Made by a program: the position numbers and the translations under genes
Shown: positions 5,548-25,988 of the stretch, one piece after another
Position numbering within the stretch: position 1 is the stretch's first letter
Layout of the letters: every line of letters begins with the position of its first letter
Notes under the pieces: generated by a model
What the model was told of the DNA's origin: nothing
The model's input: the letters and a program-made list of their open reading frames with translations, nothing else
The model's database searches: none
Source: Vicinamibacteria bacterium
Lineage (GTDB): Bacteria > Acidobacteriota > Vicinamibacteria > Vicinamibacterales > UBA8438
Assembly (NCBI GenBank): GCA_022821235.1
Contig: JAJEEA010000535.1
Coordinates: forward strand, 1 to 32,407
Length of the DNA stretch: 32,407 nucleotides
Direction: 5' to 3'

Positions 5548-5572
5548 GGGGATGCGGACTCCGAACCGTGGC

Positions 5573-5656
5573 CAGGAGTCCGCGCGGTAGAACGGTGCAG
5601 ACTCCTGGCAGGGTTGGTTGGGCGCCAAGCGGAGCCGAAGGCGACGATTCGTGGGC
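5573..5656 (+). repeat. Interspersed intergenic repeat, copy A
   Basis: About 84 bases closely match copy C (32145-32229) and partly match copy B (28663-28745) and the inverted copy D (24011-24056). The best conserved core is GCGCCAAGCGGAGCCGAAGG followed by CGACGATT and ending near GTGGGC. All copies lie between genes. It has no coding signal and is probably a family of small genome-wide repeats, possibly a non-autonomous element; its ends and any target duplication are not clear. Confidence 0.6.
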
Positions 5657-5703
5657 TTGGCCGATGGCGGCCACGGCCAAGGGTCGTTCAGGAGCGCAGT
5701 GCG

Positions 5704-5838
5704 CTACGGTCGTACGGGTCGCGCTGGGGCAGGGACCGGAGCGAACGGGGCAACCCGCCGCGCCCCGCGCAGCACCAGCGGCTTCCGGCGGCGGGCCGTC
5801 AGCCAGCGATTCAGGGTGTCTTCGGCGAGCCGTTTCAT
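5704..5838 (-). pseudogene. Truncated AAA ATPase (DUF4143-type), N-terminus only
   Basis: Reading from ATG at 5838 gives M-K-R-L-A-E-D-T-L-N-R-W-L, then R-K-P-L-V-L-R-G-A-R-R-V, which is the characteristic start of AAA_14/DUF4143 ATPases (normally followed by G-K-T, the Walker A loop). Homology stops at R-G-A-R-R-V: the next residues are A-P-F-A-P and a Pro/Ala/Arg-rich run to a TAG, 44 residues in all. Intact members are around 400 residues. A plausible ribosome-binding site and an A+T-rich upstream region remain, so the gene was probably cut by a deletion or rearrangement at its Walker A motif. Repeat copy A lies about 50 bases beyond its end. Confidence 0.65.
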
Positions 5839-5851
5839 GGTAGATACACCC

Positions 5852-5866
5852 TGAAATATCATTTCA
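5852..5866. promoter_or_regulatory. A+T-rich palindrome upstream of the truncated ATPase gene
   Basis: TGAAAT-ATC-ATTTCA is a perfect inverted repeat with 6-base arms and a 3-base spacer, about 14 bases upstream of the ATG of the broken ATPase gene. Its position and A+T-richness fit an operator or promoter element that survived when the gene was lost. Confidence 0.35.
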
Positions 5867-6087
5867 AGTAATCAAGCACACGTCTGTTGGGTTGAACCGG
5901 CGCCATGCCGATCCGCGGGTTCCCCTACCGACTCGTCGATTCCGCGATCGATTTCGAGCGCGGCGCCCGCCCGCGAGATCGCGGCCTGCGACACCGCGCA
6001 CGGGCGCAGGCTGCCTCACGGTCCTGGAGCAGAGCCAGGTTTCCGCGCGTGAACGAGGGCACGGGTGCGAGCTGCCGCCGACCGAGG

Positions 6088-6657
6088 TCAGGGGAGAAGA
6101 TCGTCGACGAAGATCCGTGCGTCGGGACGAGCGAGCGGCGCGACGCTGTCCCCGGCTGCGTGCCTGGTGACGCTGCGGTAGCCGTCTTCAGCCGGATCGC
6201 GGTAGACCTCGAGGCGGGCGTCGGGGAGGGCGAGGATCCAGTACTCGGGAATCCGGCAGCGCGCGTACAGGCGCTGCTTGACGGTCCGGTCGTACCGCAG
6301 TGATTCGTTCGAGACCTCGACGACCAACACGGCCGAGGCTGGATGGGCGTCCCGGTACTCGCGGATGGTGCCGGTCACCACGGCCAGGTCCGGCTCGGGC
6401 TCCGAGTAGTCGTCGGCCGCCACGGGGTGCTGTATCCGTACGTGGAACCCGGCGCCGAACACTCGCCGCAGGCACTCGGCCACGAGGTCCATGCCTGTCG
6501 CATGGCGGCTTCCCTCCGGTGTCATGGCGTGCAGATCTCCGTCGACGAGCTCCAGCCTGGCGTCCGGCTCGAACACGCCGGCTTCCACGGCACGGTCGTA
6601 CTCGGCGCGGCTCAGGCGGTAGTGGGAGATGGACGTGTGGGACAGACTGGATCTCAT
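6088..6657 (-). CDS. Uma2 family (DUF820) putative endonuclease
   Basis: This 189-residue protein belongs to the Uma2/DUF820 family, which has a PD-(D/E)XK nuclease fold but mostly unknown cellular roles. Visible motifs are R-L-E-L-V-D-G-D-L near the N-terminus, P-E-P-D-L-A-V-V (acidic catalytic strand), V-L-V-V-E-V-S-N-E-S-L with the catalytic Glu, and V-K-Q-R-L-Y-A-R-C-R-I-P-E-Y-W, where the Lys and Tyr are conserved. The ATG at 6657 is chosen because GGAGA lies 9 bases upstream; an earlier in-frame ATG at 6741 would add unrelated residues. It lies 106 bases downstream of the five-gene operon on the same strand and could be read through from it, but such genes are common as singletons. Substrate is unknown. 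Confidence 0.85.
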   Translation of the reverse strand: MRSSLSHTSISHYRLSRAEYDRAVEAGVFEPDARLELVDGDLHAMTPEGSRHATGMDLVAECLRRVFGAGFHVRIQHPVAADDYSEPEPDLAVVTGTIREYRDAHPASAVLVVEVSNESLRYDRTVKQRLYARCRIPEYWILALPDARLEVYRDPAEDGYRSVTRHAAGDSVAPLARPDARIFVDDLLP

Positions 6658-6763
6658 GGCAGCGTCTCCATGGTAGCCGGGAAACCGCCACCATGCGCCA
6701 GTGCCCTGGATTCGGCCGCACGTCTCCGTCTGGTCGAGCAACTGGACCGAGGGGGGCGTGCGC

Positions 6764-7438
6764 TCACCGTGCCGCCCTGAGAATCCGGTTCACTTCGGAC
6801 GAGTTGGTGAGCAGGAAGTACTGGTTCACGACGCCCAGCGCCCGCGTGAACGCCGTCTGCGGGGTGGTCTCCCCCTTGTGGAGCTCCACCCAGAAGCGGC
6901 ATGGGCCGCCGTAGGTGTCGTCGGCGTTCCCGTACGCGTGAATGTCGCGGGCGTAGCGGGAGAAGCCGTCTTCCTGCATCAGACCGCGTGCGATGGCCTC
7001 TTCGAGCCGCGGGATGTCCGCCACGTCCGGCTCCTTCTCCCGCGGCCACAGGCGGGTGAGAGCATACCCGGAATCGACGACGATCCGCAGCAGCGGCACC
7101 GGCGCGGTCAGCGAGCCGGGCCGCGTCCCGAGGCAGGGAACGCTCCCGAGCATGCCCTCGGTCACGCGCGTTTCAAGCTCCCTGTTGCGTGCCCGCGCCT
7201 CCGCGAGTTGAGCCTCCAGGCGAGCGCTGAGCTCCTTCGCCTCCAGGAGTTGGTCTCGCGTTTCCTGCAGTTGGTCTTGCAGCCTCTCCTGTCCGCCCGC
7301 AGAGACTCCCGGATCGGGAGGGTCGGGCGCGGCGACGCTGGCCACGCCGGCCGCGATTGCGAGGCCGAGCACGGCCAGAACCGTCATCAGGTCGGCGAAC
7401 GCCGGCCACGCGGTCAGGGCGCTGCGCGAGCGTCTCAT
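6764..7438 (-). CDS. MotB/ZorB-like single-pass membrane protein with coiled coil
   Basis: This 224-residue last gene of the five-gene operon has a short basic N-terminus (M-R-R-S-R-S), then one hydrophobic helix at about 13-36 beginning W-P-A-F-A-D-L-M-T-V-L-A-V-L-G. The Asp at residue 16 sits where MotB and ZorB carry their ion-binding Asp at the start of the helix (compare MotB '-DMMT-'). A strong heptad-like coiled coil follows (about 48-95, rich in Gln, Glu and Arg), then a periplasmic region with two cysteines (V-P-C-L-G, G-P-C-R-F-W-V). I do not see the usual OmpA-like peptidoglycan-binding motif, so the C-terminal domain is either divergent or different. It starts 12 bases after the ZorA-like gene with GAGG before the ATG. 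Assignment rests on architecture and gene pairing, not close identity. Confidence 0.7.
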   Translation of the reverse strand: MRRSRSALTAWPAFADLMTVLAVLGLAIAAGVASVAAPDPPDPGVSAGGQERLQDQLQETRDQLLEAKELSARLEAQLAEARARNRELETRVTEGMLGSVPCLGTRPGSLTAPVPLLRIVVDSGYALTRLWPREKEPDVADIPRLEEAIARGLMQEDGFSRYARDIHAYGNADDTYGGPCRFWVELHKGETTPQTAFTRALGVVNQYFLLTNSSEVNRILRAAR

Positions 7439-7450
7439 GGATGCTGCCTC

Positions 7451-9082
7451 TCATTGCGGCCCGAACTGCCTGCCCCCGGCCGCACCGTGGCCGGGTCCCC
7501 GGCGCCGCAGCCGGTCGAAGAGCCGGCGCCAGAACCCTCGGCGCGCGCCGGTCTTGAGATCGGCCGCCCGCCGCAGCTCGTTCGCGATGTCCTGGAGGTC
7601 CTTCCGCACCGGCTCGAAGCTGTCTGCGGCGCCGTCCCGGAAGGCCCGGGTGAGGGACGCGTGGAGGTTCTCGTTCAGTTCCACCACCTTCTCCAGGTGG
7701 TCGGCCGCCGCCTTGAGTCTATCGATGGACTGCTGGAGCTTCTCGTCGGCGGTGGACAGGCTGGCCGCGAACGTCGCCGCGTTCTCGGGCAGGGTGCTCA
7801 GCGCCTCCTCGATGCCGCGGGTGACGCGCTGCAGCATGGACGACAGCGGTTCGCCCACCCGCCGGTGGACCTCCTCGGCCGACTCGCCGACCACCCGGCT
7901 CGTGTCGTTCAGCAGGCGGTTCTGCACGTCCCGTATCGAATCGTCGATCTGCTTGGTCAGGGCCTGGTTGCCGCTCCGCATCTCTTGCGTGAGGTCGGCG
8001 ACGTGCTGCTGGGCCCCGATGCTGAACTCCCGGCCCAGTCGGCCGGCAATCTGCTCGATCTCGAGAGTGAACGCTGCCGGCAGGGCTTCGACGATGGCGG
8101 CGATCTCCGCCGCGCCCTTCTGGACCAGCTCGACCGATTCGCGCCACGCGGCCTGTTGCTGCTCGGCGGCCTCGCGGCGCCCGCGCTCCCAATGTTGCAG
8201 GGCCTGGCTGGTGTGGTCCAGGAGCGCGCGTTGATCGACCAGCACCTGCCGGACCGTGTCGATGAACGCGTCCTGGTCGCCGCGCATCTCCCGCGCCCAC
8301 GTCTCGCGGGCCTCGTCGAAGGTCTGCCGGAGCTGGCCGGGCATGGTGCGCAGGTCCGTCGTCGCGGCGTTCAACAGGTCGGCGGCCGGTGCGATCTGCG
8401 CGGCGGCGGCGGTCAGTCCCTCGACGCCCCGCTGCAGGCCGGCCGCCGCCTCCAGAGTCGACCGCGACTGCGCAGCGGCCGCCTCGCCCATGTGTTGGAC
8501 GCTCCTGTCGAGTTGCGCGAACGCATCGGGGAAGCTGCGCACGGCCTCGCGGAACGCCTCGCCCAACTGGTCGCGGACTGCGTCGGCGAACCGTTCCTCG
8601 GGGGCGTTCTCATCGCTGCACGTCCGTAGCGCCTGCCGGAAGTCGTTCAGCGCCTGTTCGAAGCGGCGGTCCGAGATCCCGAAGAGCCAAAGGGTGATCA
8701 AGAGGTTGTTCGCAACGCCGGAGAGGCTGGCCAGGAGGGCGGGTGCGAAGGCTGCCAGCACGCCGAGCTCGAAGTCGGACAATCCCCAGAGCCGGTACGC
8801 GAGGGCACCCATGGTGCCCCCGATCCCGACCACGAGGGCCGCCGTCGCCCAGACCCGCATGCCGTCGACCCGGCGCTCGTGCACCCGGTCCGCCTCATCC
8901 ATGTAGCGCACCCAGTCGGGGCCGTCACCGCGTTTCGCCCGACTCTGGATGTCATGCTTGAACGTGTTCCACAGGCGGTTGAGCTCGTCCGACTCGTCGG
9001 CGCGGGCGATTACGTTGCAGCGCCAGAAGATATGGATCTGGAAAGCGAGCACAAGGACGAGGACCGGATCGAAGAACGTCAT
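7451..9082 (-). CDS. MotA/ZorA-like membrane protein with a long coiled cytoplasmic tail
   Basis: This 543-residue protein has three predicted membrane helices (about 5-20, 77-97 and 105-135), with a cytoplasmic, charged segment between the first two. The third contains A-F-A-P-A-L-L-A-S-L-S-G-V-A-N-N-L-L-I, a pattern like the MotA/TolQ/ExbB/ZorA channel helix. The rest (about 136-510) is a continuous Ala/Glu/Gln/Arg-rich helical region, ending in a basic patch (R-R-L-F-D-R-L-R-R-R). ZorA of Zorya anti-phage systems has exactly this layout: a MotA-like channel with a long intracellular tail. The ATG at 9082 overlaps the stop of the lipoprotein gene as ATGA. Paired with the next gene it probably forms a proton- or sodium-driven complex. 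A methyl-accepting or chemotaxis-type coiled protein is less likely because two clustered channel helices precede the tail. Confidence 0.72.
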   Translation of the reverse strand: MTFFDPVLVLVLAFQIHIFWRCNVIARADESDELNRLWNTFKHDIQSRAKRGDGPDWVRYMDEADRVHERRVDGMRVWATAALVVGIGGTMGALAYRLWGLSDFELGVLAAFAPALLASLSGVANNLLITLWLFGISDRRFEQALNDFRQALRTCSDENAPEERFADAVRDQLGEAFREAVRSFPDAFAQLDRSVQHMGEAAAAQSRSTLEAAAGLQRGVEGLTAAAAQIAPAADLLNAATTDLRTMPGQLRQTFDEARETWAREMRGDQDAFIDTVRQVLVDQRALLDHTSQALQHWERGRREAAEQQQAAWRESVELVQKGAAEIAAIVEALPAAFTLEIEQIAGRLGREFSIGAQQHVADLTQEMRSGNQALTKQIDDSIRDVQNRLLNDTSRVVGESAEEVHRRVGEPLSSMLQRVTRGIEEALSTLPENAATFAASLSTADEKLQQSIDRLKAAADHLEKVVELNENLHASLTRAFRDGAADSFEPVRKDLQDIANELRRAADLKTGARRGFWRRLFDRLRRRGPGHGAAGGRQFGPQ

Positions 9083-10575
9083 CGGCGACCCGGAAAGCGG
9101 AGGAGGGCCGGGGTCTGCAACTCGTAGCGGTCGGGAGCGATGCGGACCGCGTCGACGAAGCCCTGCAGTTGGAGCGTGTTGCCGATCTCGCCGGTCTCGG
9201 TCGACCAGTCGCCCCAGTCGACCGCGCCCGTATCCGTGATCGTCCCCGTGGCTTCGATGGACAGTTCCAGTCCCGCCCCGGCGGAAGCACAGCGGACGGC
9301 GGAGCAGGCGAAGACGAAGGTCAGCCGTGTCCCGTCGATGCGGGCGTCGATGTCGGGCGGCAACGTCGGGGTGGGCGGGAGCGCCCCGCCAGCCGCCTCC
9401 TGCCGGTCTCCCGGCTCCGGGGGCGTGACGGCGGCGTCGCCCGCGCCGGTTGCCGATTCCTCTCCCCGCGCCGCTGCTCCTCCCGCCGGTGGCGTGACGA
9501 CCCACGTCGCACGGGCGTCGGTGGGCTGGAACCCGCCCTCGACGTTGCAGGACAGGGTGACGGGGTCGTCCCGCACGCAACAGTACTGCTGCTCCTGGTT
9601 TGCGAACAGCGCGTACTGTGGCCCCGGTTCGTCGCCGCCGCCCGAGCCGACCCGGCAGAAGACCTCGGCATCGCGGCCGCGCGTGGCGCCCGTCAGCAAC
9701 TCCGACCGCGTCTCGATGGCGATGTTCCGGCTGCGGTTCAGTTCGTCCACTGTGGCCTGCAGCGAAGCCATGACCGAAACGACGCGGTCAGCCCCGCGGC
9801 CAAGCACCAGCACGTAGACGGGAATCTGCTGAACCGTCTCGAGCGCTACCCAGCGTCGCCGCAACTCGTCGAATCGGCAGCCGAGCGGTGCGCGAGCCTC
9901 ACACCCCCGAACCCTCACACCCCAGTAGTCGGCCTTCAGACCGAAGAGACCCACGTGGAACGAGCCGCTACGCACGTCCGGCGACCGCAGCCACTCGCCA
10001 AGGGCCCCGAACACAGGGAGGGGGCCGGTGGTGTCGCCGGTCGCCATCAGGTCCGAGACGAGGGCCGCAGCCTCGGCCCGGCCGCTGCGGAAGTCGCCCA
10101 GCACGCGTTCCATGGACTGGTCGAGTTGGGTCGACCTGCCGTCGAATACGCCGCGCTCGATCAGCGGGCGCGCGCCGAGGCCCCGCAACTCGTGGCCCAC
10201 TCCCACCCACCGGACCGGCGCATCGGCGCCACCGAACACCCGCGCCATGTGCTGCGCCGCATTCTGGGCGACGAACTGGAATACAGAGAGGTCTCCGTCA
10301 CCGTCCGGCGGCAGGTAGCCGGCCATGGGCGAGGAGATGTCGAGGTGCAGCTCGACGAATTCGGGATCTCCCGGCGGACTCGCCGCCCCCGTCTCCGGCT
10401 CGGCCCAGGCCGGCGCCGCCGTCGCCGTCAGCGGCGGCAGGTCTTCGACGCGGCTGGTGTCGCCCGCGCACGTGCGGGGGTCGGGGCAGGGCGAGCCGCC
10501 GCCGCACGCGGCGAGCGTGACGGCCAGGCCGGTCGTCGTCAGGGAGGACCACACGGTTCGTGGCGGTGCGTGCAT
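9079..10575 (-). CDS. Large exported lipoprotein, possible degenerate vWA domain
   Basis: This 498-residue protein starts with a lipoprotein signal: a hydrophobic stretch ending L-A-A-C, with Cys24 as the lipid-modified residue. After a Pro/Ala-rich linker comes F-V-E-L-H-L-D-I-S-S-P-M-A-G-Y (about 73-87), which resembles the first strand and metal site of a von Willebrand A domain (D-x-S-x-S), but Pro replaces the last Ser. A later A-A-L-V-S-D-L-M-A-T-G could be the second acidic strand. The C-terminal half is Cys-containing (Q-Q-Y-C-C-V, L-S-C-N-V, F-A-C-S-A-V-R-C-A), beta-rich and broken by a Pro/Gly/Ala linker. ATG 10575 has GGAGG eight bases upstream; the stop overlaps the ZorA-like start. 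I cannot assign a function; its place in the operon suggests a periplasmic or outer-membrane sensor or anchor. Confidence 0.7.
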   Translation of the reverse strand: MHAPPRTVWSSLTTTGLAVTLAACGGGSPCPDPRTCAGDTSRVEDLPPLTATAAPAWAEPETGAASPPGDPEFVELHLDISSPMAGYLPPDGDGDLSVFQFVAQNAAQHMARVFGGADAPVRWVGVGHELRGLGARPLIERGVFDGRSTQLDQSMERVLGDFRSGRAEAAALVSDLMATGDTTGPLPVFGALGEWLRSPDVRSGSFHVGLFGLKADYWGVRVRGCEARAPLGCRFDELRRRWVALETVQQIPVYVLVLGRGADRVVSVMASLQATVDELNRSRNIAIETRSELLTGATRGRDAEVFCRVGSGGGDEPGPQYALFANQEQQYCCVRDDPVTLSCNVEGGFQPTDARATWVVTPPAGGAAARGEESATGAGDAAVTPPEPGDRQEAAGGALPPTPTLPPDIDARIDGTRLTFVFACSAVRCASAGAGLELSIEATGTITDTGAVDWGDWSTETGEIGNTLQLQGFVDAVRIAPDRYELQTPALLRFPGRR

Positions 10576-10643
10576 GCTTGTAGCCTCCGGGAGCGCGGCC
10601 GGCAGGAGAGCTCGACGGCGCCGGGCGTCCCGAGACCGCCCAC

Positions 10644-13600
10644 CTACCTGCCTTCGACGAAGCGCTTCGACTTGAACGCCTGCTCCCACACCAGGGGGGC
10701 GATCGGCGCTCCGAAACGGGCCTCGCTCCTGAGCCCGAGCTTGTCGAGGTCCTGGTTGATCTTCTTCTTCATGTCCGGTTCGAGATCGTCGAGTTCGCGA
10801 CGAGCACCGCCCGCGGCGTCCGCCAGACTCAACGGAAACGGCGGTTCGACGCGGCGAAACTCCACTTTGGCCTCGTCCTCGCCGATGGGCGCCGGCAGCG
10901 GGTCGAACCAGCGGATCCGGGGCTGGTCGCGCTCTCCCGCCGACGGTCGTTGAGTCATCACCTCGAGCTGGACGAGCGCATACGAGTGGGCGCGAGCCCG
11001 GGCCTGCTCGTCAGGCAGGGCCTGCCCGACCACGCGGCAGATCGGTGCAGCCTTGGGATTCTCACCCGGCGACTCTTCCGGCGTGCAGGCGGGCGGACCG
11101 ACGGCGGGTCCGTTGCCGCCCTCTCCCGCGGCTTCCTTCCACAAACCATGCTTCCGCCACAGGTCGTCGAGACCACGCCAGGCGTCTCGGTCGCCAGCAC
11201 GATCTCGCCACAGCTCGCCGACCCGCACTTCCAGGTGCCTTGCGACCCGCCGTTCGATCTCGCCATAGGTACCGGGCCACAGGCGCCAACCGTTGCCCCG
11301 GAGTTGCGCGTGGACGCGCAGGCGGGCGTGATCGCCCGGGCGTTGCTCCAGTACCCGGGGATACCAGTGGCGGACCAGATAGGCCACTAGGCTGCGCGCC
11401 ATGTACTCGACGACGAGCCGGAAATAACGTTCAATCAGCGCCCGCGCGGCGTTCGCGGCCCCGGGTTCGGAGAAGCCCGCCACGTCCAGCCCGCGGTGCC
11501 GCTCGGGCTCACCGTCCCCGAGAAAGCGTGCAGATCCCTTGGACCGCATCCACGCCCGCAACTGGGTCTGGATATCGTCGGCATGGAGGGCCCAGCCCGG
11601 TGGCACGAACCGTCCAGCGTAGTCGGCCATCGTGCGTAGCAGTTCGTTCCCGCCCAGCTTGGCGCTATCCGCCACCTCCTGGAAATCGATGAAAGGTCTG
11701 CCGTTGGCCGAGATGAACAGGTCGAGGGTGCCGCCGCCGAGGTCGCCCACCAGACAGACTTCGCCGAAGACATCCGTGCCGCCCTTGGCCGCGCTCGATT
11801 CGTTGTATATCCCGATGTCGTCGGTAAGGCCGAACACGCAGCCGAGGCTGCGCTTGGCGCTCTCAAGCGTCCGCCGCAGCGTGCGCTGGTAGTCCTGCAC
11901 ATGCCCGGACGAGTCCCTCCGTAGCGGGTATGTGAACGTGAAGTCCACCCGCGACGGCAGTCCCTCCAGCCGCCGCCAGACGACGTCGGCCATGACCAGC
12001 TCCATCGCCATGCTCAAGTAGATCTCCCTCAGCACGGGTTCGCGGCCCCGGAACGCCTCGGACGACGCCCGCCACTTGAAGTCGGAGAGGAGATGGTCGG
12101 CGAGGTCGCTGCGCTGCATGTCCATGAACGGGATGACGCAGTCGCAGCCGGGCTGCCAACGCGCCGGGTCGTCGGCGCTCAGGGTCGCGAGCGGCGCGAT
12201 GGTTAGCAGCTCGGACGGCAGTAGTCCCTGCATCTCCTTCGGCGCGACTTCGTCGGTGTAGGTCGGCAACCACTCGCCGAGCGCCTTCAGCCCGGGTCTT
12301 GCGTCGGAACCGGCCACGTGCGACCAATTCTCGCTGACGTGCAGCGTGAGGGGGCCGCGCCGGGCGGGGGCGAGATCGGCCGGCAGTTCGACGAGATCCT
12401 TCCGACCGTCCGCTTGCACCGCGGCGACGGTGTGCGACGTCCCGAAGTCGATGCCCACCTTGACGTCCGCTTGCCGCCGGCCGAGGGGTTCGAGGCGGAC
12501 GACGTAGAGTCCGAGCTCCTGCCGGGATTGCCGATTCTCGAGGCTCAACGCGAGCGGGGGGCCGCCGGTGTGCGCCCGCCGGTCGCCGCCAACGAAGCGC
12601 ACCGGGTGCGCCCCCGCCACCTCGGGGGCGGCGCACCGACGCACGCAGCCGTCGTCCGGATCGAACCACAACGTGCTCAGGCGGAGCTTCTCGTCGGTGC
12701 AGTGCTCGTAGACGTAGTAGGCGCGCCAGTACGGGGCCTCCGTGGAGCGGAACCGGGGCCACACCATCCAGTGGGCGGCGCGAGGCGGCTCAACCGCGTT
12801 CGCAGCGTCGGGCGGTACGGGCAGGGTGATGACGACCCGGTCGCTCCGGCCGGCGAGGCGCAGCTCCCAGATGACGTTCGACCGCCCGCGACCCTCGTCG
12901 ATGGTCGGACCTGCCTCGTCGACGGCCCTGGACACTTCGGTGTACCTGCCCTGCTTGAGCAGGTCGACGACGCGCCGGCCGTCGTCGGTCTCGACCAGGT
13001 CCAGGTAGTCGGCCCGTAGCGGATAGTCGGGGTATCGGGGTCGCTCGGCTCGCGTCGACGACCCGGGGACGGGATCCTGTTGCATCGGCGCGCAGTCGCT
13101 CACCATCAGGTCGTCGCGGTCGAGGACCACGACGTTGTCGAGCACGGCCGCCGCTTGGCCGTCCGCGGTCAGAATCGCCAACCGACGTTCGTCCGGTTTG
13201 ACGCCGAAGGCGGCGATGGCGCCGCTGCGCTGCAGGTGGTCGAGGTGTTCGCGCCACAAGGCCCGCCTCGGCTTGTCCCAGTCGGGCAGCGTGAACTCCA
13301 CCATCTCGAACGCGACCCCGGCATCCGTCGTGACTGATGCCAATGCCGGGGTTTGTGTCAGGAGCTGGTCTTCCGCGATGGGAAGCGTGTCCTCGTCGGG
13401 CCAGTAGTCGCGGGAGGTCGTTGGCAGCGCGATGGGCACGATCGGGTCGTCGCCGGCGGCGCCCCAGAATACGGAGAGCGTGCGCCCCCTCCCGAACGCG
13501 GCCGGTTCCGCCTCCGTGACGTCCTCGAAGACCTGGGTCCATGGCGGCGGCGCGCCGTCGTGCATGCGCTTCTCGTTCGCGATCCAGGTGCGGATCTGCC

Positions 13601-15608
13601 GCAGTGCGAGGGCGGCGGGGCGCCACCTGGCCATGGCCTCGGTCCGCCACTCGCGGGGTCGCTCGGAGTCCGTCAGCGCCTGCCACAGCGCTCCCCAGGC
13701 CACCTCGCGCTTCTCGTCGTCCGCGATCGGCGTCGGGCAGAGCAGCGTGTGCGGCGAATTGAATCCGAGCACCACCTCAACGTCTCGGCGCCTGTAGACG
13801 ACGGCCACGCGCGCCAACCCCGGGATGTCCTTGCGGTACTCGTCCACGAGGCGATCGAGCGACAGCCGGGGTGGGTCCGTTCGCCGCGCGATGTTCCGCA
13901 AGGTCAGCCTGTCGTTCATCACCAGGCCGGCGAGGAGCATCGCGAGCTGCCGACGCTCCGTCGGCCGATCATGCTCGATGGCGTGGCGGAAGTGGTCCGC
14001 CGCCGCCATGGGATCGGGCCAGCCGTTCTCGGCGACATGTTCCGGGCGGATGAATCCCTGAACCGTCCCCTGGATGTTCTGGTCGGAGACCTGCGTCAAT
14101 CCACCCGGCTTCTCGGCCGCGACGTTGAGGCTGTCCTGCCCGAGGAGCTGCGGCCAATATCCGCGGCCGCCCCCCGCCGGCGGAGCGGCCAGCACAGCCG
14201 CGCCCGACCCGGCGGCGTGATCGCGGATCCAGTCCGCCGTCCAGTGCAGGAGAGCCAGGGCCGCGGCGTCCTCGCGGCCCATGTCGTCCCGGCGCGCCCG
14301 GACGAGGCGGCGGGTCGCCAGCCGCGTGCGACACAGGGCTTCCTGCGTCAGCGAGAGGTCCGGTCTTGGCGCTGCGCCGAGCACGTCCTGCATCCACTCG
14401 ACGTGTTTGCGATAGTCGGAGGCCAGCCTCGACAGCGCTGGCCCGACCCGCTCCGGGGAGGCCAAGCGTCCGGTCGCGGTGCAAATGGCCGGCGCGACCC
14501 CGAACGGGTCTCGACCGCGCCGCTCGGACAGTGTCCCCGCGAACACCTCCAGCAACTCGACCAGGTTCGCGGCCTGATTGGCGAGGCTCTCGACCGAGTC
14601 GTTCCCGGTGCCGCCGGGCAAGTAGTTGCCGCCGCCGAGCCGAGTCGGATCCTCGGCCCCCATCTGGTAGAGGCCGGGCCCGCAGGGTTCGCGGTCGAGG
14701 AAATGGCGCAGGCAGCACAGGGCTGCGACGCCGTGAATGAACGACTCGCGGATCGGTTGCTGCGTGTCCGACGTGTAGCGTCGGAACGTGATGGCGGCGT
14801 CGGGCGCGCCGACCGGCACCGTGGCCACGCGGCGCGCCAGCGCCTGACCATAATAGGCAAACGCAGCGTTGGCGTTGTCCACCATGGAACGGTCGCGGCG
14901 CTGCGCCTTTTCCAGGGTGGCCTCGTCCAGCCCCTCCTGTTCGAAGCGGAACCAGTTGAGCACCATGACGGCCATCACGTCGGCGCCGTCGGCGGCGAGC
15001 CGTTGCGCCAGCGTCGGCGCCACCGAGGCCCCGGTGCCGCCGACGGCCGAGCCGACCACCGCCACCCGGCCCCGCCGGCCCAGCAGCTCGCGGTACGTGC
15101 CGTCGTGGTTCGTGCCGGCGCCGCCCGACTTCGTGTCGAATTCCTTCAGCCGGAACAGCAGCGACCCGACGGCGGGAGAACCCATCATGCCGTGTGAGAA
15201 GCGGATGTCCCGTTGCGCCCGTGATGTGAGCAGATCGAGGTACGGCGAGTCTGCGAAGCGGCGGCCGAGGGTGTCGTAGGGCGGGTCGAACCACGCCCGG
15301 TCACGGCCCAACGGCAGCGGCGTGACGATCTTCAACTCGGGAGCAGCGGGGCGGCCGATAGCCGCCCGCCAGTCGTGCCGGCCCGGGTGGGAGGCGACGA
15401 GTCGACGGGTGAGCTGCCACGCCGTCGCTTCCTGGTCGCCGTCTCCTGAATCCTGATCCACGAGATAGATCGTGGGGAACGCCAGCGGTTCGCCGTCCGC
15501 GTCGCGGAAGAACCCGAGGGGCTGGCCGAGGGCGTGCAGCCGCACCAAGGCCAGCGCCACGTGGGCGCCGGTGCCGCCGCAGACGACGAGGGTGTTGGTG
15601 TTCTTCAT
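10644..15608 (-). CDS. Giant fusion of a tubulin-like GTPase domain and an Hsp70/actin-like ATPase domain
   Basis: This is a 1654-residue protein without a signal peptide or membrane helix. The N-terminus has V-V-C-G-G-T-G-A-H-V (residues 8-17) and V-V-G-S-A-V-G-G-T-G-A-S-V (184-196), matching the two glycine-rich nucleotide loops of the bacterial Tubulin_2 family (the second is the tubulin signature GGxTGxG-like loop). A long unclassified middle follows. From about 1049 it shows V-G-I-D-F-G-T-S-H-T (phosphate-1), then G-I-Y-N-E-S-S-A-A (about 1266, like the Hsp70 N-E-P-x-A-A link), L-V-G-D-L-G-G-G-T-L-D-L (about 1286, phosphate-2) and A-K-L-G-G-N-E-L-L. The last 200 residues are charged. The ATG overlaps the upstream gene as ATGA. 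Likely a GTP- and ATP-controlled scaffold or switch for the membrane complex encoded downstream. SrfB-type proteins share the Hsp70 part but I know of none with this N-terminus. Confidence 0.78.
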   Translation of the reverse strand: MKNTNTLVVCGGTGAHVALALVRLHALGQPLGFFRDADGEPLAFPTIYLVDQDSGDGDQEATAWQLTRRLVASHPGRHDWRAAIGRPAAPELKIVTPLPLGRDRAWFDPPYDTLGRRFADSPYLDLLTSRAQRDIRFSHGMMGSPAVGSLLFRLKEFDTKSGGAGTNHDGTYRELLGRRGRVAVVGSAVGGTGASVAPTLAQRLAADGADVMAVMVLNWFRFEQEGLDEATLEKAQRRDRSMVDNANAAFAYYGQALARRVATVPVGAPDAAITFRRYTSDTQQPIRESFIHGVAALCCLRHFLDREPCGPGLYQMGAEDPTRLGGGNYLPGGTGNDSVESLANQAANLVELLEVFAGTLSERRGRDPFGVAPAICTATGRLASPERVGPALSRLASDYRKHVEWMQDVLGAAPRPDLSLTQEALCRTRLATRRLVRARRDDMGREDAAALALLHWTADWIRDHAAGSGAAVLAAPPAGGGRGYWPQLLGQDSLNVAAEKPGGLTQVSDQNIQGTVQGFIRPEHVAENGWPDPMAAADHFRHAIEHDRPTERRQLAMLLAGLVMNDRLTLRNIARRTDPPRLSLDRLVDEYRKDIPGLARVAVVYRRRDVEVVLGFNSPHTLLCPTPIADDEKREVAWGALWQALTDSERPREWRTEAMARWRPAALALRQIRTWIANEKRMHDGAPPPWTQVFEDVTEAEPAAFGRGRTLSVFWGAAGDDPIVPIALPTTSRDYWPDEDTLPIAEDQLLTQTPALASVTTDAGVAFEMVEFTLPDWDKPRRALWREHLDHLQRSGAIAAFGVKPDERRLAILTADGQAAAVLDNVVVLDRDDLMVSDCAPMQQDPVPGSSTRAERPRYPDYPLRADYLDLVETDDGRRVVDLLKQGRYTEVSRAVDEAGPTIDEGRGRSNVIWELRLAGRSDRVVITLPVPPDAANAVEPPRAAHWMVWPRFRSTEAPYWRAYYVYEHCTDEKLRLSTLWFDPDDGCVRRCAAPEVAGAHPVRFVGGDRRAHTGGPPLALSLENRQSRQELGLYVVRLEPLGRRQADVKVGIDFGTSHTVAAVQADGRKDLVELPADLAPARRGPLTLHVSENWSHVAGSDARPGLKALGEWLPTYTDEVAPKEMQGLLPSELLTIAPLATLSADDPARWQPGCDCVIPFMDMQRSDLADHLLSDFKWRASSEAFRGREPVLREIYLSMAMELVMADVVWRRLEGLPSRVDFTFTYPLRRDSSGHVQDYQRTLRRTLESAKRSLGCVFGLTDDIGIYNESSAAKGGTDVFGEVCLVGDLGGGTLDLFISANGRPFIDFQEVADSAKLGGNELLRTMADYAGRFVPPGWALHADDIQTQLRAWMRSKGSARFLGDGEPERHRGLDVAGFSEPGAANAARALIERYFRLVVEYMARSLVAYLVRHWYPRVLEQRPGDHARLRVHAQLRGNGWRLWPGTYGEIERRVARHLEVRVGELWRDRAGDRDAWRGLDDLWRKHGLWKEAAGEGGNGPAVGPPACTPEESPGENPKAAPICRVVGQALPDEQARARAHSYALVQLEVMTQRPSAGERDQPRIRWFDPLPAPIGEDEAKVEFRRVEPPFPLSLADAAGGARRELDDLEPDMKKKINQDLDKLGLRSEARFGAPIAPLVWEQAFKSKRFVEGR

Positions 15609-16051
15609 CGTCCGGCCCCTCGTTCGTACGACCGGTTCGCGCCTACCAGTCCCAGAAGACAGAGGGCCGTGGCGAGCAGAATGCCCAGCCACGTGAACCA
15701 CAGGTTCGCGGTTCGCTGCGTCGGCGCGCAGTTCTCCGCGCCGGACAGGACCAGCGAGAACACCAAGCCCGAGACGACGAAGACGCCGACGACGATGCCC
15801 ACCATCGTCCAGGGCGACGGCGCGCTGGCGGATTCGCGCAGGTCCCAACCCTTCAGGCCACGTTTCCGCGCCCATGCGACGACCACCGCCGTGACGATGC
15901 CAGACGCGAGGGCAAGGAACAGGATCGACATCTCCTGCCCGGGCGCGTTGCACCAGGCGTCGAACCCGCCCTCGCCGCCACAGGCCGCGGTCGCGCCGAG
16001 CAGCAAGGGCAGTAGCGCTCGGCCGGCGCAAGCGCGTGATCGATTCGTCAC
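15605..16051 (-). CDS. Small three-helix membrane protein, first gene of the five-gene operon
   Basis: This 148-residue protein has a signal-like N-terminus (basic start, L-L-P-L-L-L-G-A-T-A-A-C) and three membrane helices at about 40-60, 81-104 and 117-137. The basic loops (A-R-K-R-G-L-K and N-R-S-Y-E-R-G-A-G-R) predict the N-terminus and the second inter-helix loop outside. Both outside segments carry a Cys (D-A-W-C and E-N-C-A), which could form a disulfide; Cys24 might also be lipidated, though the lipobox is imperfect (T at -3). The GTG at 16051 is chosen because GGGGAG lies just upstream and it gives the signal sequence; the frame stays open further upstream. Its TGA overlaps the fusion gene's ATG. 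No family is recognised; probably a membrane anchor or regulator of the complex. Confidence 0.65.
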   Translation of the reverse strand: MTNRSRACAGRALLPLLLGATAACGGEGGFDAWCNAPGQEMSILFLALASGIVTAVVVAWARKRGLKGWDLRESASAPSPWTMVGIVVGVFVVSGLVFSLVLSGAENCAPTQRTANLWFTWLGILLATALCLLGLVGANRSYERGAGR

Positions 16052-16102
16052 TGGACTCCCCGTTGGCGACGACCTCTGGGGCGAGCGGCCCCGCGGCCGC
16101 AG

Positions 16103-16119
16103 GTTTTTCGGCAAAAAAC
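16103..16119. promoter_or_regulatory. A+T-rich inverted repeat in the divergent promoter region
   Basis: GTTTTT-CGGCA-AAAAAC is a perfect 6-base-arm inverted repeat with a 5-base centre, 52-68 bases upstream of the five-gene operon and about 170 bases upstream of the divergent PQQ dehydrogenase. It is followed by GTTATCACTTG, also unusually A+T-rich here. It could be an operator for the operon; a terminator is less likely because no gene ends here. Confidence 0.4.
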
Positions 16120-16288
16120 GCCAGCGCATGTTATCACTTGGCGCGTACGCCTCGGCCGGGTCCGCCGGGTCCCGTTGGGCCGCGCGGCGTCGGAGCGGGG
16201 GCGGTGCCCCGCGCGTGGCTCTCGCCTGAGGCGCCCAGCGGACGCAGCCAAATGGATGGCCGAGCGGCGCACGAGGAAAGGACATGAC

Positions 16289-18382
16289 ATGACGGTGATG
16301 AGCGGAGGCGGGCCAGGGGCGCTGGCGCGACCGGCGATGCCACAGAACCAGGTAGTCGAACAGCGCAACCCGGCCTGGCTGCTGCAACAGACCGCCCCGC
16401 TAACGCAGCCGTCGAGGCCCGCTACGGTGTTGCGGTCCGCGTCGACCGCCGCCGCCCTCGGAGCCCTTCTGTTCACCGCGGCACCGGCGCCGGCCCAGAC
16501 GCTGGCCCCGGCGGGCGAGTGGCGGGCGTTCGGGGCGGACGCGGCCAACACCAAGTACTCGCCGCTCGACCAGATCACGCCGGAGAACTTCACCGAGCTG
16601 GAGATCGCCTGGCGCTGGCGCTCGATCTCGGGCGAGGTCGCGGCCGAGCACGAGGCCATCCGCCCCGGCCCCTTCAAGACCGCCCCGCTGATGATCGGCG
16701 GGCTGGTCTACGTCAGCACCGCCCTCGGGCAGGTCGCGGCCCTCGACGCCGGCACCGGCGAGCTGGTCTGGTCGTACGACCCGCGCACCTACGACCGTCT
16801 CGAGCGCCCCGCCAACATGGGGTGGCAGCACCGCGGCGTGTCGTACTGGGAGGACGACGAGAGCGACGACGCCCGCATCTTCATCGCCACCCACGACCTG
16901 CTGCTGGTGGCCATGAACGCCCGCACCGGCCGCCTGTACCCCGACTTCGGGGCCGACGGCGCGGTCGACCTCAGCGGCAGCCTCGGGCGTCCCGTCGACC
17001 GGTCGCGGTTCACCCATTCGCAGCCGCTGGCCGTGGTCGGCGACACCGTCATCGTGGGCAGCATCGTGCAGGACACCTCCCTGACCCGCCGCGAGGCGGA
17101 CCCCGGCCACGTCCGCGCCTTCGACGCCCGCACCGGCGAGATGAAGTGGATCTTCCACACCATTCCCCAAGGGGACGAGTTCGGGGCCGACACGTGGCAC
17201 GACGAGTCGTGGCGCTACAGCGGCCACACCAACGTTTGGGGGACGATGGCCGTCGACGAGGAGCTGGGCTACGTCTACCTGCCGACGGGCACCCCGACCA
17301 ACGACTGGTACGGCGGCATGCGCCACGGCGACAACCTGTTCGCGGAGAGCATCGTCGCCGTCGACGTCGAGACCGGGCAGCGCGTCTGGCACTTCCAGGC
17401 CGTGCACCACGGGCTCTGGGACTACGACTTCCCGACCGCCGGCAACCTCGTCGACATCCGCGTCGACGGCCGCGACGTCAAGGCCATCGCCCAGCCCGGC
17501 AAGCAGGCCTTCGTGTACGTCTTCGACCGCGTGACCGGCGAGCCGGTGTGGCCCATCGAGGAGCGGCCGGTCCCGGCCGGGAGCGTGCCGGGGGAGTGGT
17601 ACTCGCCGACCCAGCCGTTCCCCACCCGGCCGGCCGCGTTCGATCTGCAGGGCATCACCGTCGACGACCTCATCGACTTCACCCCAGAGCTGCGGGCCGA
17701 GGCCCTGCGCCTCGCCGGGCGGGCCCAGCTCGGGCCGATGTTCACGCCGCCGCCGGTGCGGGGCGAGGGACGGCCCATCATCCAGTCGCCGGGCCCCGGC
17801 GGGGGCATCAACTGGCCGGGGGCGGCCGTCGACCCCGAGACGGGGCGCCTGTTCGTGCCCTCGCAGACCCGCCTGCGGGCGGTCGAGCTGGTCGAGTACC
17901 CGCCCCCCGCCACCGTCGGCTACTTCACCGACCCGTGGGCGCGGCCGGTGCCGGGGCCGCAGGGGCTGCCGCTGGTCAAGCCGCCCTACAAGCGGGTCAC
18001 CGCCATCGACCTGAACACCGGCGACCACGCCTGGATGGCCCCGCACGGCGACGGCCCGCGCAACCATCCCGCTCTGCGCCACCTCCGGCTGCCGCCGCTC
18101 GGCGGCCACAACGGCATGCACGGGGGCGGCCCGCTGGTGACGAAGACCCTGCTCGTCGTCAACTCCGGCGGGCGGTACGTCGAGGACATGGTAGAGGCGG
18201 CGCGGGCCATGACCGCCTACGACAAGGACACCGGCGCCTACCTGGGGTCGGTGGAGCTGCCCGCCGTGCCCTACGGCAACCCCGTCACCTGGCTGCACGC
18301 GGGGACGCAGTACATCGCGGTGGCCGTCGGCACGTCGAGCGCCGAGGGCGGCGCCGAGCTGATCGCCCTGGCCCTGCCCTGA
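16289..18382 (+). CDS. PQQ-dependent dehydrogenase, secreted
   Basis: This 697-residue protein is an eight-bladed quinoprotein beta-propeller of the glucose/alcohol dehydrogenase type, expected to oxidise a sugar or alcohol in the periplasm with PQQ. It has propeller repeats of the form A-L-D-A-x-T-G-E-x-V-W, the family stretches G-W-Q-H-R-G-V-S-Y-W, H-H-G-L-W-D-Y-D-F-P, K-Q-A-F-V-Y-V-F-D-R and G-G-G-I-N-W-P-G. No C-terminal cytochrome c domain follows. The ATG at 16289 has a strong ribosome-binding site (GAGGAAAGGA), but the signal peptide (L-R-S-A-S-T-A-A-A-L-G-A-L-L-F-T-A) starts only near residue 47, leaving an odd Pro/Gln-rich leader. A GTG at 16427, with GAGG upstream, would remove the leader and may be the true start. 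Substrate is not readable. Confidence 0.88.
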   Translation: MTVMSGGGPGALARPAMPQNQVVEQRNPAWLLQQTAPLTQPSRPATVLRSASTAAALGALLFTAAPAPAQTLAPAGEWRAFGADAANTKYSPLDQITPENFTELEIAWRWRSISGEVAAEHEAIRPGPFKTAPLMIGGLVYVSTALGQVAALDAGTGELVWSYDPRTYDRLERPANMGWQHRGVSYWEDDESDDARIFIATHDLLLVAMNARTGRLYPDFGADGAVDLSGSLGRPVDRSRFTHSQPLAVVGDTVIVGSIVQDTSLTRREADPGHVRAFDARTGEMKWIFHTIPQGDEFGADTWHDESWRYSGHTNVWGTMAVDEELGYVYLPTGTPTNDWYGGMRHGDNLFAESIVAVDVETGQRVWHFQAVHHGLWDYDFPTAGNLVDIRVDGRDVKAIAQPGKQAFVYVFDRVTGEPVWPIEERPVPAGSVPGEWYSPTQPFPTRPAAFDLQGITVDDLIDFTPELRAEALRLAGRAQLGPMFTPPPVRGEGRPIIQSPGPGGGINWPGAAVDPETGRLFVPSQTRLRAVELVEYPPPATVGYFTDPWARPVPGPQGLPLVKPPYKRVTAIDLNTGDHAWMAPHGDGPRNHPALRHLRLPPLGGHNGMHGGGPLVTKTLLVVNSGGRYVEDMVEAARAMTAYDKDTGAYLGSVELPAVPYGNPVTWLHAGTQYIAVAVGTSSAEGGAELIALALP

Positions 18383-18548: not shown

Positions 18549-18881
18549 ATGGCCAAACGACTGCGAGGCGGCGGGGCGGAGCCCCGGTCGCCGGCGACAC
18601 CCGGCGCGCGCGTCGTCACCGCGACGGAGACGGCGAAGAACTTCGGCGCGATCATCGATCGGGTACGGGAAGAACGCGCCGTCTACGTCGTCGAGCGCGG
18701 CGGCACGCCGGTAGCGGAGATCGGCCCGCTCAAGGCGAAGACCGTCACGATTCGCGACTTCGCCGAGCTCGTCCGTTCCGGGTCGGTTCCATCGCCCGGC
18801 GAGGACTACCTGAGGGCGGTCGAGGAAGGCATCGCCTTGTACAATCGCCCCGAGGTTCCCGAGAACCGATGGGAACCCTGA
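18549..18881 (+). CDS. Type II antitoxin, Phd/YefM family
   Basis: This 110-residue protein has the Phd/YefM core: V-V-T-A-T-E-T-A-K-N-F-G-A-I-I-D-R-V (residues about 22-39), then V-Y-V-V-E-R-G-G-T-P-V-A-E-I-G-P-L, the DNA-binding and dimer part. The C-terminal third (D-F-A-E-L-V and onward) would wrap the toxin. Members usually start right at the core; here about 20 residues precede it (K-R-L-R-G-G-G-A-E-P), so the true start is a little uncertain. Its stop lies 13 bases inside the PIN toxin gene, the usual coupled arrangement. It would neutralise the toxin and autoregulate through the inverted repeat just upstream. Confidence 0.85.
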   Translation: MAKRLRGGGAEPRSPATPGARVVTATETAKNFGAIIDRVREERAVYVVERGGTPVAEIGPLKAKTVTIRDFAELVRSGSVPSPGEDYLRAVEEGIALYNRPEVPENRWEP

Positions 18882-19288
18882 TCGACTCGAGCGTCCTGAT
18901 CGCGGCTGAACGCGGCCGACTCGACCTCGAGACGGCGCTCGCGGTCGGCCCGGACGAACCCGTGGGCATCGCCGCGATTACCGCGTCCGAGCTGCTCCAC
19001 GGCACGCATCGGCTCGGCGGCGTACGCCTCTTGCACGCGCGAGCGTTCGCCGAGCGGTGGCTCGCGATCCTGCCGGTCGCCCCTTTCGATCTGCCGGCCG
19101 CGCAGGTGCACGCGGCGCTGGCCGCGGATCTCGCTCGTCGGGGAACGCCCATGGGCGCCCACGACCTGATCATCGCGGCCACCGCGGTGCATCTCGGCTA
19201 CTCGGTCGCCACGTGCGACCGTCGAGGCTTCGGCCGGGTGGATGGGCTCACCGTGCAGTACTGGCAGATGCGCCTCGAACGGAAGTGA
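18869..19288 (+). CDS. vapC: PIN-domain toxin, VapC family
   Basis: This 139-residue protein is a standard-length VapC ribonuclease toxin. The metal-binding acidic residues are all present: D6 in T-L-I-D-S-S-V-L-I, E41 in I-T-A-S-E-L-L-H-G, D99 in G-A-H-D-L-I-I-A-A-T-A, and D117 in V-A-T-C-D-R-R-G-F. It starts within the antitoxin gene, in a different frame, so the toxin is translated after its partner. VapC enzymes cut tRNA or rRNA; the target here is unknown. Confidence 0.92.
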   Translation: MGTLIDSSVLIAAERGRLDLETALAVGPDEPVGIAAITASELLHGTHRLGGVRLLHARAFAERWLAILPVAPFDLPAAQVHAALAADLARRGTPMGAHDLIIAATAVHLGYSVATCDRRGFGRVDGLTVQYWQMRLERK

Positions 19289-25099: not shown

Positions 25100-25645
25100 G
25101 TGGATACACCCGAAGCGGCTCCCCGCGGGCCCGATCGCCGGTTGTGCGACGACCTCGCGCGCGGCCTGCGGGCCGAGCCGACGGTCCGCCTCGCGTGGCT
25201 GTTCGGAAGCCGGGCGCGCGGCGCGGCCCGCCGGGACAGCGACGTGGACGTCGCCGTGCTCGTCGGCGACGCGTGCACAGCCGGGCCGGGAGCGGTCAAG
25301 GACACGATGTTCCGGGTAATTGGCGCGCTCGGCCGGTTCGTCCGCAGCGACCTCGTCGACCTCGTGCTCCTCGACCACGCACCCCCGCTGCTGAGACACC
25401 GCGTCGTCCGCGACGGCGTCCTGCTGTACGCGCGCTCCGACGCCGAGCGTGCGCGCTTCGTCCGCCGCACGCTCAGGGAGTATCTGGACCTCGAACCCCG
25501 GCTGCGCGAGCAGAACCGGCTGCGGTTGCGCCGGCTCAGGGAGGGACGACCGCGTCATGATGGTCGATACCGCGATCTTCTTGCGGCGGCTGGACGCGCT
25601 GGACGACTACTTGCGGCGCCTTCGCAGCCTGGGTCGGGCGCGTGA
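25100..25645 (+). CDS. mntA: MNT-type nucleotidyltransferase antitoxin of a type VII toxin-antitoxin pair
   Basis: This 181-residue protein has the minimal nucleotidyltransferase motif G-S-R-A-R-G (36-41) followed ten residues later by D-S-D-V-D-V-A-V (D48, D50). In studied pairs MntA transfers AMP to a tyrosine of the HEPN toxin to silence it. The start is a GTG with only a weak ribosome-binding site. MntA is usually about 130-150 residues and ends near the toxin start; here the frame runs 89 bases into the toxin gene, adding about 30 low-complexity residues (A-A-A-G-R-A-G-R-L-L-A-A). The usual stop may have been lost by mutation. The core is intact. Confidence 0.86.
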   Translation: MDTPEAAPRGPDRRLCDDLARGLRAEPTVRLAWLFGSRARGAARRDSDVDVAVLVGDACTAGPGAVKDTMFRVIGALGRFVRSDLVDLVLLDHAPPLLRHRVVRDGVLLYARSDAERARFVRRTLREYLDLEPRLREQNRLRLRRLREGRPRHDGRYRDLLAAAGRAGRLLAAPSQPGSGA

Positions 25646-25988
25646 GTCCGACTACCTCGCCGACCCGGGTATCCACGATCTCGCCGCGCGGTACCTGCAC
25701 CTGGCGATGGAAGCGACCATCGACCTCGCCAACCACTGGATCTCCGATGCGGGCCTGCGGATGCCGGAGACGAACCGCGACGCATTCACCTGCCTGGAGG
25801 AGGCCGGCGAGATCGATGCCGAGCTGGCTCGACGCCTGCGCGAGTGGGCCGGTTTCCGCAACGTCCTGGTGCACGACTACCTGACCATCGATCACGGCAT
25901 CGCGTACAGGGCGATCCGCGACGACCTCGGCGACCTCGACGCGTTCCGCGGCTGGGCCCTCGGCAAGCTCGACTCCGACGAGTCCTGA
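25557..25988 (+). CDS. hepT: HEPN-domain ribonuclease toxin
   Basis: This 143-residue HepT toxin is an RNase of the HEPN family. The active-site motif R-N-V-L-V-H-D-Y (R101, H106, Y108) is a perfect R-x4-H-x-Y; Y108 is the residue that the partner MntA modifies. Helical layout and length are typical. Two adjacent ATG codons (25557, 25560) could start it; the first is given. It lies within the 3' end of the antitoxin gene in another frame, implying coupled translation. Confidence 0.9.
   Translation: MMVDTAIFLRRLDALDDYLRRLRSLGRARESDYLADPGIHDLAARYLHLAMEATIDLANHWISDAGLRMPETNRDAFTCLEEAGEIDAELARRLREWAGFRNVLVHDYLTIDHGIAYRAIRDDLGDLDAFRGWALGKLDSDES

Follow-up and report, generated by a model that had tools for sequence, protein, structure and literature searches.

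A five-gene operon of a Vicinamibacteria bacterium combining a tubulin-Hsp70 fusion, a motor-type membrane pair and a vWA-like lipoprotein

In 2010, FtsZ-like proteins of the FtsZl1 (Tubulin_2) family were described in gene clusters with vWA and OmpA-family partners and transmembrane (TM) proteins, and membrane remodelling was proposed as their role (Makarova & Koonin, PMC2875224; this and the other papers cited are used here from excerpts of their text); the spread of the family is scattered (PMC9871819). In 2020, tubulin, HSP70 and vWA sets accompanied by GTPases were predicted to be conflict systems, GAP1-N2, with the tubulin themes placed in firmicutes and actinobacteria (Kaur et al., PMC7159879). 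The Myxococcus Agl motor is made of AglR (MotA/TolQ/ExbB-like) and of AglQ and AglS (MotB/TolR/ExbD-like); it works with MreB on the inside and with CglB, a vWA lipoprotein of the outer membrane (PMC4488436, PMC13104615). In 2025, vWA proteins were proposed as force transducers of TolQR-type motors (PMC12204202), and in Zorya, defence depends on the tail of ZorA as well as on the periplasmic domain of ZorB (PMC11890865). Here we analyse an operon from a Vicinamibacteria bacterium (contig JAJEEA010000535.1, positions 1 to 32,407; this whole stretch of 32,407 nucleotides is called the window), which joins a tubulin-like/Hsp70-like fusion protein to a motor-type membrane pair and a vWA-like lipoprotein. 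No description of this union was found in the literature (open-licence papers). The original prediction, made from the letters alone, knew of no named system with this make-up, and none was found in these papers, but the 2010 and 2020 proposals, which it did not name, are close predicted kinds.

Five adjacent genes, a to e, occupy about 9.3 kb of the minus strand of the window (6764-16051):

15605..16051, minus strand: gene a, small membrane protein of 148 residues, GTG start, lipobox-like signal followed by three TM segments
10644..15608, minus strand: gene b, tubulin/FtsZ-like - Hsp70/actin-like fusion of 1654 residues, ATG start
9079..10575, minus strand: gene c, lipoprotein (lipobox LAAC) with a vWA-like domain, 498 residues, ATG start
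7451..9082, minus strand: gene d, ZorA/MotA/TolQ-type membrane protein with a long helical tail, 543 residues, ATG start
6764..7438, minus strand: gene e, MotB/TolR-type protein with a single TM segment carrying an FADLMT motif and a periplasmic domain, 224 residues, ATG start

Genes a/b and c/d overlap by ATGA, and gaps of 68 bp and 12 bp separate b/c and d/e, respectively. The order and coordinates of the genes, their overlaps and the membrane segments are as first reported for this DNA. None of the five proteins had an above-cut-off match in Pfam or NCBIfam; their identities therefore rest on relatives, motifs and models.

The five-gene set is real, conserved and unusual. It recurs in Acidobacteriota and in one Gemmatimonadota genome (loci and genomes are designated below by our L and G numbers). 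Besides the window, loci of the same type are L002, L003 (judged by length, the same contig as G495/L033), L004 (similarly, G510/L035), L005, L017 (G117) and a remnant, L034 (G509). By tblastn, L003 carries a to e, and L017 and L005 carry b to e, L005 being interrupted in b and d; L002 carries b on a contig that ends about 0.6 kb past it. An a-like gene was placed by position and alignment in L002, L005 and L017. Two copies are decayed: in L035, e is full-length and the other four genes are present as pieces, and L034 retains only residues 33-121 of a and 1-188 of b (tblastn). As the assemblies are drafts, part of the damage, including that in L005, could be assembly error. More remotely, L020 (G257) has the same five-gene order, with a b protein of 1,465 residues that carries two GGTG loops and DFGTT/Hsp70 motifs; its Hsp70 link is strong and its tubulin profile weak (28-69%). 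The same parts are spread over two contigs in G235 (L143, L022), and L021 (G339) encodes vWA, 3TM, tubulin and Hsp70 proteins, then, after a gap, ZorA- and ZorB-type proteins. The recurring blocks diverge congruently, and L020 keeps the gene order; we therefore rejected the possibility that the five genes are neighbours by coincidence. Absence of the genes from each other's company elsewhere had been named as grounds for dropping the idea of a system; they were found together in L003, L005 and L017, and remotely in L020.

Each protein-database search scored only about 7,990 candidates, those sharing most words with the query; among the candidates scored, relatives at E<=1e-3 came to 221 (b), 81 (c) and 125 (e), the last two counts including the window's own protein. 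Of the 81 contigs with a c match, the window's own included, at least 46 also had a b or e match, as judged from the up to 120 matches listed for each (contigs equated by size, not by name), which is only an indirect sign of linkage.

The features of protein b are as follows:

14349..15608, minus strand: residues 1-420, tubulin/FtsZ-like domain with CGGTGAH near the N-terminus; hhalign gives 99.1% with the tubulins that L018/L021/L032 encode as genes of their own
15027..15053, minus strand: residues 186-194, tubulin T4-type glycine loop GSAVGGTGA (alignment of 16 sequences)
11109..12491, minus strand: residues 1040-1500, Hsp70/actin-like ATPase domain (hhalign to Hsp70/MreB-like proteins of remote clusters)
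11721..11744, minus strand: residues 1289-1296, Hsp70 phosphate-2-type motif DLGGGTLD, invariant in 16 aligned sequences

Nearly all residues of CGGTGAH, GSAVGGTGA, DFGTS and DLGGGTLD are invariant in the 16 aligned sequences, among them G186, S187, V189, G190, G191, T192, G193 and A194 of the glycine loop and D1054-FGTS; both nucleotide-site motifs, tubulin-type and Hsp70-type, are thus intact. Remote clusters (L018, L021, L141, L142) encode the two parts of b separately, as tubulin-like proteins of 481-566 residues and Hsp70/MreB-like proteins of 1042-1154 residues. The Hsp70 part of b reached hhalign values of 97.7% with L018/L021/L083 and 99.1% with L020/L022, and whole b aligned at 838-1314 to separate Hsp70-like proteins (98.1%); three pairs of unlike parts scored 0.1%. 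The DnaK profile matched b weakly (E 0.018). The tubulin proteins of L018/L021/L032 matched Pfam Tubulin_2 members at 96.5%, whereas the tubulin part of b compared with these members directly gave 3.9% only, so that the link runs via L018/L021/L032. PF13809 (Tubulin_2) did not match b at E<=1, and a search of genomes with this model had no hit at the window. Among the separate proteins, that of L021 was above the Pfam cut-off for Tubulin_2 (L018 was not), and those of L018 and L032 for MreB_Mbl (L021 was just below). Profiles of b, c, d and e, run against PDB sequences, matched only weakly, either at chance level or to Hsp70/DnaK-type proteins (best E 0.38, with b). In conclusion, the invariant motifs and the profile comparisons with separate tubulin and Hsp70 genes bear out a tubulin-like/Hsp70-like fusion, as originally proposed.

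The remote clusters vary in content. No motor gene was recognised in L018 (G096; tubulin match also in G123 and G165), L032, L083, L141 and L142; this is a weak negative, because genes of the relatives were called by an in-house script and motifs labelled by regular expressions. The window's own genome holds one of these clusters as a second relative (G000:C184, L032:5491-12568), with vWA-type, 4TM, tubulin-like and interrupted Hsp70/MreB-like genes. In L141, two proteins with Hsp70/actin motifs (7644-11027 and 12665-15247) adjoin a tubulin-like gene. L083:2382-12475 encodes a true Tubulin_2 protein (1472 residues) together with vWA-motif, 4TM and Hsp70/actin-motif (1064 residues) genes; a link to Hsp70 of this kind is not mentioned in the excerpts of the 2010 FtsZl1 paper (PMC2875224). 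The Tubulin_2 search gave matches in 19 of 297 genomes. Among 18 stretches around such matches, no genes were called in L093, L097 had only two small genes, and L094, L095, L096 and L098 were set aside as ordinary FtsZ, three of them appearing beside FtsA-type genes.

Proteins d and e form the motor-type pair, and e has two features of note:

7391..7393, minus strand: Asp16, candidate ion-carrying aspartate of the MotB/TolR type (alignment of 52 sequences)
6767..7135, minus strand: residues 102-224, periplasmic domain, TolR/ExbD-like in an AlphaFold2 (AF2) model, with invariant C102 and C180 (alignment and model)

Hydropathy gives three TM segments in d. Its residues 33-152 matched the ZorA-type proteins of L020/L022 (hhalign 94.2%) and have a GxxGT motif in common with them. 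Against PADLOC (copy dated 2023), the best ZorA match of d (5.9e-6) covers residues 235-389, i.e. the helical tail, which also matches other coiled-coil profiles, and the NCBIfam antiphage_ZorA_1 score was 8.8 bits for a cut-off of 190. PF01618 did not match d at E<=1; the L021 counterpart of d scored 20.4 bits, below the cut-off of 22.9. In e, D16 of the FADLMT motif is conserved in at least 90% of 52 aligned sequences, and the N-terminal TM segment, this segment only, matched ZorB-type proteins of L020-L022 (hhalign 95.1%). Pfam detected no OmpA domain in e, and PADLOC gave no match at E<=1; the AF2 model resembles TolR/ExbD, and OmpA does not figure in the fold lists for e, which excludes nothing. 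ZorB-type proteins were identified by PADLOC in the remote relatives L020 (near full-length), L021 and L022, and the two tested with Pfam, L021 and L022, had OmpA above cut-off. Comparison of d and e with the genome's own TolQ/ExbB/ExbD proteins revealed no direct link (hhalign 0.4-3%; about 1% or less for d with TolQ/ExbB-type proteins). A flagellar MotAB pair was set aside, as Pfam linked neither d to MotA nor e to OmpA. A phylum-wide search with the ZorB model (56 of 199 genomes at E<=1e-8, the window's own genome not among them) was too unspecific to use, as one of 14 control genomes also matched. Together, d and e are predicted to be an ion-driven inner-membrane motor of 5:2 stoichiometry. 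The pair had been labelled ZorA/ZorB-like: a MotA/ZorA-type protein does adjoin a MotB-type protein, but for the window the label is loose, the weak ZorA scores falling on the tail and e resembling TolR/ExbD in its model.

Protein c, which has an LAAC lipobox, was correctly recognised as a lipoprotein; its vWA-like domain is a new feature:

10324..10341, minus strand: residues 79-84, MIDAS-like (metal ion-dependent adhesion site) first motif DISSPM (alignment of 36 sequences)

Residues D79, S81, P83 and, further on, D175 are invariant in the 36 aligned sequences, and the structural model is vWA-like as well. The protein is predicted to lie, lipid-anchored, on the periplasmic or outer-membrane side.

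Protein a had been described as a 3-TM protein. The three TM segments are present, but the description was incomplete, since a lipobox-like signal, LLGATAAC, precedes them. A comparable lipobox in the same frame is found in three of four aligned relatives (L002, L005 and L017, not L003); a is 44% identical to its L003 counterpart over residues 26-148 (tblastn). Homology with the 3-4TM genes of the remote clusters was not detectable (hhalign <=1%), so that a is matched to these genes by place and topology only. A sixth gene lies between b and c in L003 (15076-16110), L005 (13158-13964) and L017 (9928-10335, frame open to 10935), and is missing from the window. The proteins of L003 and L005 begin with TM segments, and all three have a C-terminal region in common, GDGHF...FSKSP or FAKSP...WF; Pfam gave no match for the L003 protein.

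Across 396 genomes of the phylum, b had matches in 11; those in the window's own genome and in G117 are full-length, and the other nine are partial and remote. Within the order, 4 of 162 genomes matched, and the congeners G496 and G497 did not. With a threshold of E<=1e-10, the L020 protein matched 2 of the 396 genomes, and the Hsp70-like protein of L021 matched 4 of them. The operon lies between folD and a pyrroloquinoline quinone (PQQ)-dehydrogenase gene, in a segment that both congeners lack:

5884..16492, no strand assigned: segment absent from two congeneric genomes, holding a Uma2 gene and the operon (limits from G496; 5556-16477 in G497)

In G497, homology ends at window position 5555 and resumes at 16478, with 361 bp between, and the site is empty. 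In G496, it ends at 5883 and resumes at 16493, with 120 bp between, and a DUF4143 ATPase gene is there instead. The folD-PQQ dehydrogenase interval (window 5550-16490 compared with L056 and L057) is therefore variable: operon, DUF4143 ATPase or nothing. From this variable site and the decayed copies L034 and L035, the operon reads as an accessory cassette that is gained and lost. A mobile-element or viral origin was rejected: b had no match in 72,556 plasmid records, and 14 pattern matches in viral contigs included no relative.

We propose that the five genes encode one trans-envelope force machine, in which the ion motor d/e couples cytoplasmic b to the vWA lipoprotein c; we give this reading a probability of about 0.45. 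Protein d would form a TolQ/MotA-like ring around an e dimer, and ion flow through Asp16 of e would turn or stroke the motor. The helical tail of d, about 380 residues, may act as a lever that contacts b in the cytoplasm, and e may contact c through its periplasmic domain. By assembling or switching with its two nucleotides, b would set when the motor engages, and c would serve as a clutch or adhesin carrying force outward. By analogy, the nearest worked-out layout is the Agl motor with MreB and CglB, of which the operon would be a compact, five-gene version. The Agl-Glt gliding motor of Myxococcus xanthus likewise combines a TolQR/MotAB-type proton motor, a vWA outer-membrane lipoprotein and an actin-like cytoplasmic partner; the window operon adds a tubulin part, and none is named in the excerpts on Agl-Glt (PMC4488436, PMC13104615). 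The force transducers proposed in 2025 also place a vWA protein beside a 5:2-type motor driven by the proton-motive force, but they are tethered in the inner membrane by a TM helix (PMC12204202), whereas c is a lipoprotein and the tubulin-Hsp70 fusion is added. The job of the machine is probably contact-dependent or envelope-remodelling work, carried out from an accessory cassette, with phage defence as the main alternative.

Could the operon be a Zorya-like anti-phage system, with d/e sensing the envelope perturbation of phage attachment or injection and signalling via the d tail to b as effector or switch? As in Zorya, where defence needs the ZorA tail and the ZorB periplasmic domain alike, a MotA-type protein with a long helical tail adjoins a MotB-type protein, and ZorB-type proteins occur in remote relatives. 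The patchy distribution, with an empty site in one congener, another insert in the second and decayed copies, also fits defence, and tubulin, HSP70 and vWA parts are known from predicted conflict systems (PMC7159879). Straight Zorya membership was nevertheless rejected: PADLOC detected no Zorya effector (ZorC/D, ZorE, ZorF/G) in the five operon proteins, the Uma2 protein or 18 other window proteins, and the ZorA score of d is far below cut-off; Pfam also detected no OmpA domain in e, and the operon has a vWA lipoprotein and a tubulin-Hsp70 fusion instead. Of the original interpretation, which saw the Zorya effector or switch replaced by a dual nucleotide-binding protein plus envelope parts, the conserved system that joins a motor-type pair to the fusion is supported, but the "Zor" identity is loose for the window itself. 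Defence in general is weakened further: no PADLOC match at E<=1e-5 was found among the 18 other window genes (two gene ends at the window edges lay outside the scan) or among nine flanking genes of L003, L017, L020 and L021, the only defence-model match near the operon being the Uma2 gene, to a PADLOC candidate model; Pfam found no nuclease family in the five proteins, and b had no relative on plasmids or viral contigs. We consider this explanation rather unlikely. The GAP1-N2 systems share the tubulin, HSP70 and vWA parts, but none of the five proteins matched a TRAFAC GTPase, FNIII or DnaJ family in Pfam (no GTPase family at E<=1 except tubulin), and in the window operon a single protein unites the tubulin and Hsp70 parts and is joined by a motor-type pair.

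Doubtful to a greater degree is an FtsZl1-type membrane-remodelling or vesicle system, in which the tubulin-like part of b would form inner-membrane filaments anchored in the envelope by the vWA and motor parts. The FtsZl1 clusters resemble the operon in having an FtsZ-like protein with a glycine loop in its N-terminal nucleotide domain (GSxVGGTGA in b), a vWA protein, TM genes and a patchy spread; OmpA-domain proteins are found in the remote relatives of the window, the profile link via L018/L021/L032 leads to this family and L083 unites a Tubulin_2 protein with vWA, 4TM and Hsp70/actin-motif genes. The 2010 proposal was itself built on gene context (PMC2875224), b does not match Tubulin_2 directly, its C-terminal half is Hsp70/actin-like instead of a coiled coil plus a helical domain, and no P-loop GTPase or kinase family was found in the five proteins; membrane remodelling of this kind also leaves the ZorA/TolQ-type partner and the Hsp70 part unaccounted for. 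The TolR/ExbD-like model of e and the patchy accessory distribution would suit a Ton/Tol-like energiser that drives a substrate or lipid through the outer membrane, c being the periplasmic coupling partner. This is very improbable: none of the five proteins matched an outer-membrane receptor, TonB/TolA or transporter family in Pfam, and a tubulin-Hsp70 fusion is not known to have a place in Ton/Tol systems.

More tentatively, the operon may represent a class, undescribed in the open-licence literature, of compact trans-envelope machines in which a 5:2 ion motor is wired to one protein with tubulin and actin/Hsp70 folds, with a vWA lipoprotein as outside clutch; the GTP/ATP state inside the cell would engage the motor on an external target such as an infecting phage, a neighbour or a surface. 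Each of the three kinds of part (tubulin-like, actin/Hsp70-like and ion-motor) is known from envelope or defence systems, and it is their union in one compact, apparently gained-and-lost operon that stands out. The operon would give a handle on the role of the FtsZl1/vWA clusters predicted in 2010, and on how the cytoplasm tells Zorya/TolQR-type motors when to act. As it spans only about 9.3 kb and a congener offers a natural empty site, its function is directly testable.

Other genes of the window were noted. The Uma2-family gene (6088-6657) lies on the same strand directly downstream of the operon, within the same insertion interval, and matches PADLOC candidate PDC-S03 (2.9e-14). In the flanks, a PIN-domain gene (18549-19288) is preceded by a weak, below-cut-off Phd/YefM antitoxin match, and a HepT-like gene is located at 25557-25988.
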